Source of the DNA: Sulfurovum sp.
GTDB taxonomy: Bacteria; Campylobacterota; Campylobacteria; Campylobacterales; Sulfurovaceae
Direction of reading: 5' to 3'
NCBI GenBank assembly: GCA_027081115.1
Contig: JALWLD010000035.1
Span: 1-64,000 of the forward strand
DNA: 64,000 bases
Of this stretch, positions 56,126-59,999 are shown one piece after another (position 1 is the stretch's first letter; the number at the start of each line of letters is the position of its first letter). The position numbers and the translations under genes were made by a program. The notes under the pieces are model-generated. The model did no database searches, was not told the origin of the DNA, and worked only from the letters and a program-made list of their open reading frames with translations.

Positions 56126-56216
56126 GGACGAGTGGGAGAGTTGGCTGAATCCGCGCCCCTGCTAAGGGCGTGTAGGCGCAAGCTTACCGAGGGTTCGAAT
56201 CCCTCCTCGTCCGCCA
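56126..56216 (+). tRNA. tRNA-Ser (GCT), CCA encoded
   Basis: GGACGAGTGGGAGAGTTGGCTGAATCCGCGCCCCTGCTAAGGGCGTGTAGGCGCAAGCTTACCGAGGGTTCGAATCCCTCCTCGTCCGCCA; long variable arm. Confidence 0.95.
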
Positions 56217-56222
56217 CCAATA
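56194..56222 (+). repeat. att site (tRNA-proximal copy)
   Basis: Overlaps the tRNA-Ser 3' end; identical to 59971-59999. Confidence 0.92.
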
Positions 56223-56247
56223 ACCCCCTATATAGCATCATTCTAAG

Positions 56248-57306
56248 CTATCCAATTTTTAACTCTGCCAAAACTCTGCCAATTTTTGATAAATCAGGCT
56301 TTATTTTTCCTGTGTAATGTTCACGATTGACACCATCTTCAACATGACCTAGTTGATCCAATATCCAATCTTGAGGCATGCCATACTGTTTAAGTAAAGT
56401 ATTACAAGATTTTCTTATTGTATGCATTGTTCCAACTTTTATTCCACATTCAATACAATGTTTTTTTAACAAAACTGTTAAAACATCTGGTGTATTGTAT
56501 GATTTTCCATGTTGAGTCACAAAAACATAATTATTTTTTAGTCCAGTAAGAAGTCTTTGCTTTTTTAAAGCTTTTTTAGCTTGTGGAAGCATATCTATAA
56601 TTCTTACTCTTTTGGATTTTGTCACATCTTCTATGCCATCACGTATACGTGTAGCTATTCTAATTGTTTCAGAGTCAAAGTCAATATCATTCCACCGCAA
56701 TGCTATGAGTTCGCTACCTCTTAATCCAGCAAAGAAATTAAACATAAGTATATTTCTAAACTGTCCTTCACTTTTTTCTACTAAAAGCTTCATATCTTCT
56801 TTACTAAAGACATATACTTCTTTATAGACCTTTTTAGGAGGCTTTACAAACTTTAGAGGGTTTTTAGTTATAATCTCATCATAGTGAGCCATTTCTAAAA
56901 TGAGATTGAAGATTGACCTATAGTTCCTAACTGTTTTAGGTGCAAGTCCACAATCATTTTGCCACTTTGTTACATGCGAGGCTTTTATTTCAGCGAGTTT
57001 CATATCACCAAAAGTCTTGCATAATCTATTAAATCTTTGAGTTTCTTCTTTTTGTGTGAAGGCATTACGATTATTTTTCGTAATCTCCAAAACAATCAAG
57101 CCATACTCTCGAAAAGTAGGTGACTCTTTTTGTGCTGCACCAAATTTATGCTCATATAATTTAAAGAACTCGGTATCTATATGTCTTTTATACCATGCCA
57201 ATAGACGCTTATCTGCTTTTTTACCAGTTGTTAGTCTATGTCTTTTACCATCTACTGTACCATCAAGTATGATGATATTGTAGTTATTTACTGTTACTTT
57301 AGCCAC
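56248..57306 (-). CDS. Tyrosine recombinase/integrase
   Basis: NILMFNFFAGLRGSELIALRWNDID; GTMHTIRKSCNTLLKQYG; LDQLGHVEDGVNREHY. Confidence 0.93.
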   Translation of the reverse strand: MAKVTVNNYNIIILDGTVDGKRHRLTTGKKADKRLLAWYKRHIDTEFFKLYEHKFGAAQKESPTFREYGLIVLEITKNNRNAFTQKEETQRFNRLCKTFGDMKLAEIKASHVTKWQNDCGLAPKTVRNYRSIFNLILEMAHYDEIITKNPLKFVKPPKKVYKEVYVFSKEDMKLLVEKSEGQFRNILMFNFFAGLRGSELIALRWNDIDFDSETIRIATRIRDGIEDVTKSKRVRIIDMLPQAKKALKKQRLLTGLKNNYVFVTQHGKSYNTPDVLTVLLKKHCIECGIKVGTMHTIRKSCNTLLKQYGMPQDWILDQLGHVEDGVNREHYTGKIKPDLSKIGRVLAELKIG

Positions 57307-57340
57307 GTTAGTTTCCTTCCGTTAGCTGTTGGCATTTTCA

Positions 57341-57574
57341 TTATACTAGCTTTCTCTTTACTCTATGAATAACAGATATATGGATATACCAACCTTTACC
57401 AATCTTTTTAAAGTTATCAGGATTGATATTGTTATAACACCATTTACGTAAACCATCTATAGATTTGTATCCACATTCAGTTGCATACTGTTTTGTAAGC
57501 GGTATCCATTTTGGTAAAGCATCATGTATCTTTAGGATCTCATCAAGTTTATTATTAATCTCATCAAATATCAT
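57341..57574 (-). CDS. Small DNA-binding/excisionase-like protein
   Basis: PLTKQYATECGYKSIDGLRKWCYNNINPDNFKKIGKGWYIHISVI resembles an excisionase-like winged HTH; ATGA overlap with rep. Confidence 0.55.
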   Translation of the reverse strand: MIFDEINNKLDEILKIHDALPKWIPLTKQYATECGYKSIDGLRKWCYNNINPDNFKKIGKGWYIHISVIHRVKRKLV

Positions 57575-58701
57575 GCAGCACCTCTATGCTTTTCTAAAGT
57601 ATAGTTATCGTTCTTCATATAGATTAACTCTTCACCCTCAAATATCTCTACAATCTTGTTAAGATCATCTACTGGGCTAAATACTCTTAATCGTCCATCT
57701 TTGCGAAGCTTTGTTAATGCTCTTAATGAATATCTATGATGTAGTAATCTGTAAAGATAGAGAGGGGCAAGTGTTCGGCTACTGCTAAAACGTGTAACAC
57801 GATGATGTGAGTACCATGCATTGAGGTATCTATCTTTTTTACTTAGCTTGTCACTCTTGGACTTTGGAAGTGTTTTGTTAATGTACTTCATTACATATGC
57901 AACAGCATTACGCAAATTACTTTGTATGTCGTTACCTTTTTGAGGGAATAATCTTCTAAATGCAGAGATAACACGCTTTATGCTGTCTTTTGGTACATAG
58001 TAAAGTATATGTGTATGTGGTGTACCACTTTGATGTGGCTCATTCACTCTAAAATACATACGATTGTCTTTTTCAATGTCACGTAAGGCTCTATCGTTCC
58101 TAAGACGTGCAAAGCGTTTTGTGAGTGCTTTCACCGCTTCCCTTGGTGGTGTACCATCAAACTTAGGGTTAATGACTAACTTTTTATTACGCAGCATAAA
58201 TGGGTGATATTCACTAGGAAGTGTGATAGTCATAAAGATGGGTACGAGCCCTTTACGTTCTGCTTCACCAGTAAGTGTGTTTACTCTGTTTTGTACCTCA
58301 GAGTAATATCTGTGTGGAGAATGATTAGCAGAGATGATTAAATCTCTAAGAGGTATCATATTGCTAGTTTGTTTGTCATACAAGACAGAGAGATTTAAAA
58401 ATCTTCTTTGTAGCATGAGTTTAGTTTCGTTTACGTCTAACTGTTTTTTTGTTAGACCGTAGTAGATTATCTTTTTTTCTGAATGATTATTCCAAATTTG
58501 TCTTTTAAACGCAATGCGATTAATGTTGCTTTGGATTTGTGCATAATCTTTCTGATATTCTGCGAAGTTGTACACAACTTCTTTATAAGTAGTCAAGGAG
58601 GAGGTAAAACCTCCTCTAAGAGCATGTTTGCTAGTAGCGTCCTCCCTGAAGCGGTCGTCCTCATAACGCAAATTGCTCTTATCTGTTTTCTTTTCTTGCA
58701 T
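57571..58701 (-). CDS. HUH-family replication initiation protein (phage gpA-like)
   Basis: PIFMTITLPSEYHPF; EPHQSGTPHTHILYYV (HUH); NAVAYVMKYINKTL (Tyr motif). Confidence 0.85.
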   Translation of the reverse strand: MQEKKTDKSNLRYEDDRFREDATSKHALRGGFTSSLTTYKEVVYNFAEYQKDYAQIQSNINRIAFKRQIWNNHSEKKIIYYGLTKKQLDVNETKLMLQRRFLNLSVLYDKQTSNMIPLRDLIISANHSPHRYYSEVQNRVNTLTGEAERKGLVPIFMTITLPSEYHPFMLRNKKLVINPKFDGTPPREAVKALTKRFARLRNDRALRDIEKDNRMYFRVNEPHQSGTPHTHILYYVPKDSIKRVISAFRRLFPQKGNDIQSNLRNAVAYVMKYINKTLPKSKSDKLSKKDRYLNAWYSHHRVTRFSSSRTLAPLYLYRLLHHRYSLRALTKLRKDGRLRVFSPVDDLNKIVEIFEGEELIYMKNDNYTLEKHRGAA

Positions 58702-58703
58702 GA

Positions 58704-58925
58704 TTAGTCCTTTTCGACATAATCAGTAGCTACTTTGCATTCAATAGCATCAAGTTCTTCTATTGCTTGATAAACTACTTTTTGAATACTGTGACCTAAA
58801 TTATTACCTATTGCATCCATATTTAATACTGTTAAAACTTGCAATGTTGTTTTAACTTCATAAAAAGCATCGGATAGATGCTGTATCTCTTTGGCTTTGT
58901 TTTGTGTTTTTTGGCTATAATTCAT
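58704..58925 (-). CDS. Small hypothetical protein of the element
   Basis: MNYSQKTQNKAKEIQHLSDAFYEVK...; GGAGGT SD supports start 58925. Confidence 0.6.
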   Translation of the reverse strand: MNYSQKTQNKAKEIQHLSDAFYEVKTTLQVLTVLNMDAIGNNLGHSIQKVVYQAIEELDAIECKVATDYVEKD

Positions 58926-59035
58926 TTTGTTACCTCCGTGGTAATAGGGGTTTAGGGAGACTCGCCAAAGCACTCTCTAAACTCTAATTCTAATAACGTA
59001 CCTGACGCACTATCGTTTGTCTACGTTTAGTTTGC

Positions 59036-59049
59036 CTTGCTATCGCAAG
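59036..59049. promoter_or_regulatory. Candidate origin hairpin CTTGC-TATC-GCAAG flanked by AGTTTGCC repeats
   Basis: Sits in the only long intergenic region of the element; AGTTTGCC at both flanks. Confidence 0.4.
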
Positions 59050-59115
59050 TTTGCCTAATCCGTCCATGTACTTGTTACAACAACTATCAACATTATCAAT
59101 ATTTCTACAATATAA

Positions 59116-59385
59116 CTATACAACTCCATAGAACGTGACTTTTTCTTTAGACATATAGTTACATTTGATTTGCACTACTTGACCTTCTTTGCCTTTATAC
59201 TTTGAAATAATCTCCGTAGGCACACTTACATCTAGCAACTCATTTTTAATCTCATCATTTTTGAGTTTCTGCTCAACCATAAGTTGCACCACAAATTTAC
59301 CTTTGGTTACCTCTCCAGTCTCTTTACTGGTAAAGTCTGGCTTTAGATAACCACCGAACATTTTTCCTTCAATTGTTACTGTCAT
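59116..59385 (-). CDS. Small protein, possible ssDNA-binding (OB-fold-like)
   Basis: MTVTIEGKMFGGYLKPDFTSKETGEVTKGKFVVQLMVE...; position in a Rep operon. Confidence 0.5.
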   Translation of the reverse strand: MTVTIEGKMFGGYLKPDFTSKETGEVTKGKFVVQLMVEQKLKNDEIKNELLDVSVPTEIISKYKGKEGQVVQIKCNYMSKEKVTFYGVV

Positions 59386-59762
59386 TTTGCACCTCTTCTT
59401 TTAAGTTCTGCAGTAATTGCATTAACTTTTACAGACATAATTTCCTCTTCAATAGTCAAATCATATCTTACACCATTCGTAGCATCAACTACATCTACAC
59501 CCTTTGCAATCGTTTCTCTAATACTGTCAAGAGACTTTTTAGCAAGTGTTAGCTCTTCCACCAATTTCATAGTTCCTTGTTCATCTAATTCACCGTCAAG
59601 TACACTCTCTAAAATAGAGGCACAAAGATTATTTAGTGAAACATTACTGTCATCAGCAATTTTTTGAAGTTTCATTTTAATATCAGATGATACTTTAAGA
59701 CTAATTGCCACTTTTTCAGCTTCCTGTTCTTTTGCTTTTTTAATAGCACTTTGTATTAACAT
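59382..59762 (-). CDS. Ribbon-helix-helix-like regulator
   Basis: EKVAISLKVSSDIKMKLQKIADDSNVSLNNLCASILESVL; ATGA overlap with next gene. Confidence 0.6.
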   Translation of the reverse strand: MLIQSAIKKAKEQEAEKVAISLKVSSDIKMKLQKIADDSNVSLNNLCASILESVLDGELDEQGTMKLVEELTLAKKSLDSIRETIAKGVDVVDATNGVRYDLTIEEEIMSVKVNAITAELKRRGAK

Positions 59763-59791
59763 AGTTAATCCTTTAATTTTTTTATTGATGC

Positions 59792-59840
59792 ATATAATAA
59801 ATACATCATCTAACTATATCATAATTTATATAATAAATAC
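59792..59840. promoter_or_regulatory. Direct repeats ATATAATAAATAC (59792-59804, 59828-59840) upstream of the RHH gene
   Basis: Two exact 13-bp copies in the element promoter region. Confidence 0.45.
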
Positions 59841-59866
59841 GATTATAATTTATTTTATAATTTTTT

Positions 59867-59889
59867 TATTTGGCAGAGTCTGCCAAATA
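59867..59889. repeat. Perfect 23-bp palindrome TATTTGGCAGA-G-TCTGCCAAATA near attR
   Basis: 11-bp arms, 1-nt centre. Confidence 0.7.
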
Positions 59890-59970
59890 TGTAGTATTTT
59901 GTTTGCCAACAACTAACTTTTATTTGATTTAAATGCCTATATATAGGGCTTTAGTAGATTTCTTGAAGTA

Positions 59971-59999
59971 TTCGAATCCCTCCTCGTCCGCCACCAATA
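59971..59999 (+). repeat. att site (distal copy)
   Basis: 29-bp identity to the tRNA-Ser 3' end. Confidence 0.92.

Follow-up and report, generated by a model that had tools for sequence, protein, structure and literature searches.

A tRNA-Ser-integrated element of Sulfurovum with filamentous-phage replication genes, a candidate inovirus satellite

The element and its integration site

The window analyzed here, a stretch of 64,000 nucleotides from Sulfurovum sp. (contig JALWLD010000035.1), carries at 56194-59999 a compact mobile element, which we take, on balance, to be an integrative satellite of filamentous phages (inoviruses). The element is real. A repeat search found 29-bp repeats, TTCGAATCCCTCCTCGTCCGCCACCAATA, at 56194-56222 and 59971-59999 that are 100% identical and spaced 3,777 bp apart, and ARAGORN places the first of them at the 3′ end of tRNA-Ser(GCT), as a preliminary description of this DNA had noticed. 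The exactness of the repeats suits the excisable circle that it envisaged, which would be 3,777 bp long. Same-genus relatives show the order pyrF, tRNA-Ser(GCT), dinB without the element at this locus, so that the boundary, on which the earlier view had hinged, is visible against empty sites; in one of them (L124), dinB starts 230 bp past the tRNA. The features of the locus are the following.

56126-56216, plus strand: tRNA-Ser(GCT), the integration target, which stays intact (ARAGORN, Rfam)
56194-56222, plus strand: attachment (att) repeat on the tRNA side, the 3′ end of tRNA-Ser(GCT) (repeat search)
56248-57306, minus strand: INT, tyrosine integrase, 352 amino acids, GTG start (PF00589, 1.7e-18; phrog_1, 3.4e-49)
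56263-56282, strand unassigned: putative integrase arm sites, two copies of CTCTGCCAA, read from sequence
57341-57574, minus strand: XIS, excisionase-like helix-turn-helix (HTH) protein, 77 amino acids (phrog_2655 excisionase, E 0.04)
57571-58701, minus strand: REP, HUH rolling-circle initiator, 376 amino acids (PF05840, 3.6e-20; Rep tree)
58704-58925, minus strand: p73, small conserved protein of 73 amino acids, role unassigned (49-66% identity to L062/L061)
58950-58982, minus strand: hairpin with TTGGCG in its loop, candidate double-strand origin and Rep nick site (aligned elements)
59001-59020, minus strand: motif ACAAACGATAGTGCGTCAGG, of the family AACAACGAG-N-GAGGCGTTAG, candidate single-strand origin (no second site in the window; shuffled sequence gives an expectation of 0)
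59055-59129, minus strand: possible membrane peptide MELYSYIVEILIMLIVVVTSTWTD, 24 amino acids, overlapping the SSB stop (weak)
59116-59385, minus strand: SSB, predicted OB-fold single-stranded DNA (ssDNA)-binding protein, 89 amino acids (AlphaFold, Foldseek, hhalign)
59382-59762, minus strand: ARC, Arc-like (ribbon-helix-helix) repressor, 126 amino acids (phrog_582, 9.2e-5)
59870-59886, strand unassigned: putative integrase arm sites TTGGCAGAGTCTGCCAA, the inverted partner of 56263-56282 near the other end
59971-59999, plus strand: att repeat at the distal end, an exact 29-bp copy (repeat search)

At positions matching the putative arm sites, the elements of genome G040 and locus L034 have repeats of 23-25 bp. 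Rfam gave nothing credible in this region apart from the tRNA, and among ten related loci tRNAs alone reach the gathering score.

Gene content

All six genes lie on the minus strand, in the order ARC, SSB, p73, REP, XIS and INT from the distal end toward the tRNA. The preliminary description had the single strand right and had also reported ATGA overlaps, which occur at two junctions only, XIS/REP and SSB/ARC; the other junctions are gaps, including a regulatory gap of ~190 nt between SSB and p73. Its Rep and integrase stand, it had overlooked SSB, and the repressor and excisionase-like protein are likewise additions. REP has each hallmark by which we define a PF05840 (Phage_GPA) HUH initiator, namely a HUH motif, a downstream Tyr-x-x-x-Lys-Tyr motif and a score over the gathering cut-off (72.7 bits against 31.4). 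All the motifs noted earlier, MTITLPSEYHPF, EPHQSGTPHTHILYYV and YVMKYINK, are present in the reading frame, GTPHxH and MKYINK are invariant across the Rep alignment (A1), and the protein also matches REP_ORF2-G2P (1.6e-10). Ribbon-helix-helix Pfam matches occur among ARC homologues, and 6 of 11 XIS homologues match HTH_17. Pfam and PHROGs assign nothing to p73.

The 89-residue protein has no family match of its own, and plain phmmer against the Protein Data Bank (PDB) returned nothing; the assignment needed structure. Modeling of the small proteins had been proposed in the preliminary description, and the AlphaFold model of this one (pLDDT 79) adopts an OB fold, with SSB/PriB OB folds as its best Foldseek matches in the PDB at modest E-values (~0.003 to 0.03). 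In addition, hhalign matches its profile to local inovirus SSBs (probability 94.4), and the inovirus SSB profile itself matches SSB in several elements. From this predicted fold and profile alignment we call the protein SSB, of the filamentous-phage type.

The absence of virion and transfer genes was borne out. Pfam and PHROGs detect no coat, terminase, Zot or relaxase gene in the element, and none of its small reading frames matches a coat protein, a match that would have suggested a plain inovirus. A generic Pfam Zot model missed the inovirus of the same genome, and a profile built from local inoviruses, this one being among its rows, detected it; that profile has no match in the window. Thus, the Zot-type ATPase and major coat protein of a complete Inoviridae genome are both missing by these searches. 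The Pfam and PHROGs scans also show no primase-helicase or capsid-redirecting domain of the P4-like or PICI kind, and no relaxase or conjugation gene such as an integrative mobilizable or conjugative element would have, the HUH protein being of initiator type, not a relaxase. A PF05155 search of the genome gave no match anywhere, controls included. Peptides similar to the 24-residue MELYSYIVEILIMLIVVVTSTWTD occur in about half of the elements examined. We considered this peptide as an analogue of gpVII/gpIX but do not rely on it: about half of the elements have no such peptide, and comparable reading frames turn up in about one-fifth of cases when inovirus sequence is shuffled.

A family of related elements

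Of 300 searched genomes of the order, 70 have Rep homologues. The homologues fall into two groups: those at 50-58% identity belong to the same kind of element, and the more distant ones (~26-44%), where their surroundings were inspected, are mostly from inoviruses that also encode coat, pIII-like, Zot and secretin proteins. With further loci from a GTDB genome scan, the first group, here class I, comprises 33 loci: the window, seven that the search of the order yielded (L031-L037, of which two share a genome) and 25 among L061-L089. Nearly all are from Campylobacterota. Some of the metagenome-assembled genomes (MAGs) bear the labels of other phyla (L062, Thermotogota; L067, Labilibaculum), which may reflect misbinning.

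The core ARC-SSB-REP-XIS-INT recurs across class I, in line with the Rep and integrase synteny that had been proposed as a check, and the reading frames are intact and conserved across the family. SSB was detected beside REP everywhere but in L063, L079 and L080, and at least two of these three loci are located at the start of a contig. Some elements have no integrase or an unrelated one; L036 (6605-8948), 2.3 kb long and bounded by exact 26-bp att repeats in tRNA-Leu, lacks INT and probably depends on an integrase in trans. The elements occupy tRNA-Ser, -Leu, -Pro or -Asn genes or intergenic places, and repeat-defined sizes range from 2.3 to 9.1 kb. The profile that detects local inoviruses finds no Zot in the flanks of any class I locus. 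Genome G040 holds two copies that are 99.5% identical over 3.87 kb, in two different tRNA-Leu genes, which points to recent mobility.

Several class I elements carry extra modules upstream of ARC:

L066 and L067: AAA ATPase and DUF4276
L068: two C5 methyltransferases and a GmrSD-type gene
L074: BrnT toxin
L088: NACHT protein

We read the upstream modules of several relatives, restriction and toxin genes among them, as anti-phage defense cargo, as satellites carry.

Kinship with inoviruses and exchange of modules

Sequence comparison ties the element directly to inoviruses. A tree of 94 Reps places the 32 mini-element rows together on one side of a single branch, with only moderate support (79), and 62 inovirus and phage Reps on the other. 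The preliminary description had called the initiator P2-gpA/filamentous-phage type; the filamentous half of this holds, as the tree groups the Rep with those of Campylobacterota inoviruses and not with P2 gpA. Among inovirus loci with all three markers, SSB, Zot and REP are colinear in 26 of 26, and a recognizable integrase directly follows REP in 15 of these. By its sequence, then, the element equals the inovirus gene order minus the virion block between SSB and REP.

The integration modules of elements and inoviruses have, as their homologies indicate, been exchanged. Over 1,396 bp, the DNA of the window's XIS-INT segment and att-side flank matches inovirus L110 at 72.6% identity; the INT of L110 and the protein adjoining it share 66-68% and 70% of amino acids with the window INT and XIS, respectively. 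This inovirus occupies tRNA-Met, unlike the element with its tRNA-Ser, and its MAG also contains L063, a close relative of the window element at 95-98% identity. L061 has 93% of REP and 97% of SSB in common with the window and an INT of another type, which is 72% identical to that of inovirus L112; both are in tRNA-Pro(GGG). Comparable matches link elements L070 and L071 to other inovirus-type loci.

A chimera extends this exchange to the replication module. Element L101 (7882-11740) combines ARC, p63 and a hairpin as in the mini-elements with an SSB gene that is mostly deleted (the start and last 19 codons are left), a 1,671-bp REP segment 90% identical to inovirus L102 (2457-7149), which resides in the same genome, and an XIS-INT segment that matches element L089 at 86% identity. 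Such a structure points to recombination between an element of this kind and an inovirus within one cell. The genome of the window also has an inovirus (L049), a candidate helper, on another contig, with Zot, SSB and Rep. Loci L095 and L111 have an inovirus-type Rep beside an integrase and no Zot in the stretch examined, the XIS/INT of L095 being ~80% identical to that of the window; they are possibly further chimeric satellites. In the inovirus prophages L044, L047 and L039, the called Rep reading frames run antisense across the tRNA-Gln/tRNA-Met pair at the integration site.

A second class with a different initiator

Searching with the SSB profile revealed class II elements, which have the same kinds of SSB, XIS and INT, with REP replaced by a different protein of ~440 residues. 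This protein has a weak Rep_trans match in 4 of 12 members, and its AlphaFold model matches RepDE (4cwc, 3.4e-10) and predicted Inoviridae proteins. We read it, from this model, as a Rep_trans (RstA-type) initiator. As the CTXphi initiator is of the Rep_trans family (PMC4439123), two replication modules of filamentous-phage kind would alternate around a constant SSB-integration frame. One locus (L072) has both in tandem. The class II loci (L137-L147; e.g., L138:6783-9886 and L145:3623-6827) are small and tRNA-integrated, and a GGGTATTAGTAACACCC-like hairpin often precedes the initiator. L145 lies in a pyrF-linked tRNA-Ser(GCT), the same setting as the window element.

Candidate replication origins

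The hairpin at 58950-58982 sits between SSB and REP in nearly all elements (22 aligned). Its stem covaries, the outer nine positions being 83% paired versus 54% after random reassignment of the 3′ arms (0 of 5,000 as high), with arm ends picked by eye, which favors pairing in the observed set. The loop is mostly TTGGCG, a close variant or the reverse complement, and either orientation can occur on a nearly identical stem (L033 versus L078, L082 versus L083). Inoviruses often have a different hairpin at the corresponding place; L045 and L046 have the loop motif in common with the elements. By analogy with CTXphi, the initiator of which nicks the apical loop of the ori(+) hairpin (PMC4439123), the hairpin is a candidate double-strand origin.

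An exact copy of the motif ACAAACGATAGTGCGTCAGG is found in inovirus L040, and the AACAACGAG-N-GAGGCGTTAG type recurs in class II elements and inoviruses L040/L092 and L059. Indeed, it is common to P2-like phages, some inoviruses and these elements (window 59001-59020; L116:4541-4582; L153-L232), and in 65 of 65 viral contigs with both placeable it lies downstream of gpA on the same strand, 0.1-2.2 kb away. A role as single-strand origin is possible and would suit all three settings. The motif is slightly reminiscent of an integron attC site.

Satellite or plasmid

The preliminary description had weighed a rolling-circle satellite against a minimal integrative plasmid. Its satellite gains from the initiator and integrase, the satellite-like features and the colinearity with inoviruses minus the virion block; the plasmid is weakened by the inovirus ties. 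In the satellite scheme, where we infer excision, the origin positions and packaging by a filamentous helper, the Arc-like protein would repress the integrated element. Upon derepression, XIS and INT would excise the 3.78-kb circle, REP would nick the hairpin upstream of its own gene to start rolling-circle replication, and SSB would coat the displaced strand. A co-resident helper inovirus would supply coat, Zot-like ATPase and secretin for packaging and export, and the circle would integrate into the tRNA gene of the next host.

Zot is detectable in 10 of 30 class I carrier genomes versus 53 of 294 others (Fisher p 0.04), and in 11 of 41 carriers with class II added (p 0.14). Because the two sets were drawn differently (the carriers are partly named GTDB records, the others an order sample), many carriers are incomplete MAGs and a helper is needed only at transfer, this co-occurrence lends the helper weak support. 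Several findings weigh against packaging by a helper. Only a third of class I carrier genomes have a detectable inovirus; the Rep is far diverged from that of the co-resident inovirus (31-44% amino acid identity); no class I element was found among IMG/VR viral contigs; and blastn and nhmmer searches for a packaging signal common to the element and the co-resident inovirus gave only short matches in Rep/INT coding parts. Moreover, replication alone could explain the hairpin and the motif, the latter also lying downstream of gpA in P2-like phages.

Two of these points, the undetected inovirus in most carriers and the packaging signal that was sought and not found, also give weight to the main rival, an integrative rolling-circle plasmid of inovirus ancestry that excises, replicates and reintegrates and moves by natural transformation or chance mobilization, never packaged. 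Such a plasmid would be self-sufficient in replication and integration, would need no inovirus in the two-thirds of carriers where none was detected, and could use SSB and the single-strand-origin-like motif equally well. However, Rep or XIS-INT modules have repeatedly been swapped with inoviruses, once in the same genome, the repressor and defense cargo are as in phage satellites, and a search for free plasmids of this kind gave only partial, distant GPA matches. We regard this explanation as unlikely, if worth keeping in view.

A satellite of a tailed phage such as P2, packaged as double-stranded DNA, would account for a PF05840 initiator, the family of P2 gpA, and for the AACAACGAG motif in common with P2-like phages, and PICMIs of comparably small size do parasitize tailed phages (PMC10803314). 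Yet Rep, SSB, XIS-INT and the gene order match local inoviruses and not P2, no terminase or capsid-remodeling gene was seen, and the element has an ssDNA-binding protein of its own, which makes this quite improbable. Finally, a functionless remnant of a degenerate inovirus prophage would also look like an inovirus minus virion genes, but the intact, family-wide conserved reading frames, exact att repeats, two near-identical copies in one genome and a single clade in place of scattered decay products leave it very little room.

Comparison with known systems

Filamentous-phage satellites are already known, among them TLC and RS1, the latter a satellite of CTXphi in Vibrio cholerae (PMC4439123, PMC11389934). 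The element differs from RS1 in its GPA-type Rep and in having its own tyrosine integrase and excisionase and a tRNA-Ser site, whereas RS1 uses host XerCD at dif (a trait of RS1, not necessarily of every filamentous satellite). RS1 also encodes the antirepressor RstC, and a part of its helper is almost identical to it; the element is only distantly identical to the resident inovirus. In gene content the two are alike: RS1 has a filamentous-phage-type repressor, an initiator and a small ssDNA-binding gene without a virion core, and the element, integrative too, combines a repressor, initiator and SSB of this type, that is, filamentous-phage replication genes without virion genes.

With Campylobacterota inoviruses (e.g., L049, L102, L110, L112) the element shares homologous Rep, SSB and XIS-INT, colinear order and overlapping tRNA sites; it differs in lacking coat, pIII-like, pVI-like, Zot and secretin genes and in its separate Rep tree group. 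The P2 gpA module has a PF05840 initiator and the downstream AACAACGAG...GAGGCGTTAG motif as well, but Rep identity is only ~26-30% over part of the protein and the element has no virion genes. An autonomous plasmid acting as an inovirus satellite has reportedly been described by Schmid et al. in 2024 (cited in PMC11389934), to go by the title; it would resemble the element as a plasmid-like replicon and differ in not being integrative. PICMIs, satellites of virulent tailed phages in Vibrionaceae, are likewise very small, without capsid genes, with an integrase, a small HTH protein and defense cargo; they have a DUF3987/DUF5906 primase and integrate at fis (PMC10803314). The element has no such primase, lies in tRNA-Ser and has an HUH initiator and SSB instead.

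Significance

To our knowledge, only a small number of filamentous-phage satellites have been described, with RS1 and TLC of Vibrio cholerae foremost among them. The kind is thus known, but we found no paper in the open literature (a subscription paper could have been missed) that describes a self-integrating, tRNA-using, cargo-bearing family of such breadth. We see an about even chance that the two classes make up a superfamily of integrative satellites of filamentous phages that is widespread in Campylobacterota, in which GPA-type or Rep_trans/RstA-type modules are interchangeable around constant SSB, excisionase and integrase, and whose members steal inovirus single-strand packaging and spread anti-phage defense genes. 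Ready test systems are the genomes that carry both an element and an inovirus, and the chimera with its neighbor's Rep. So large a self-integrating family with defense cargo would make inovirus parasitism a general phenomenon and would suggest that ssDNA virions can move defense islands.

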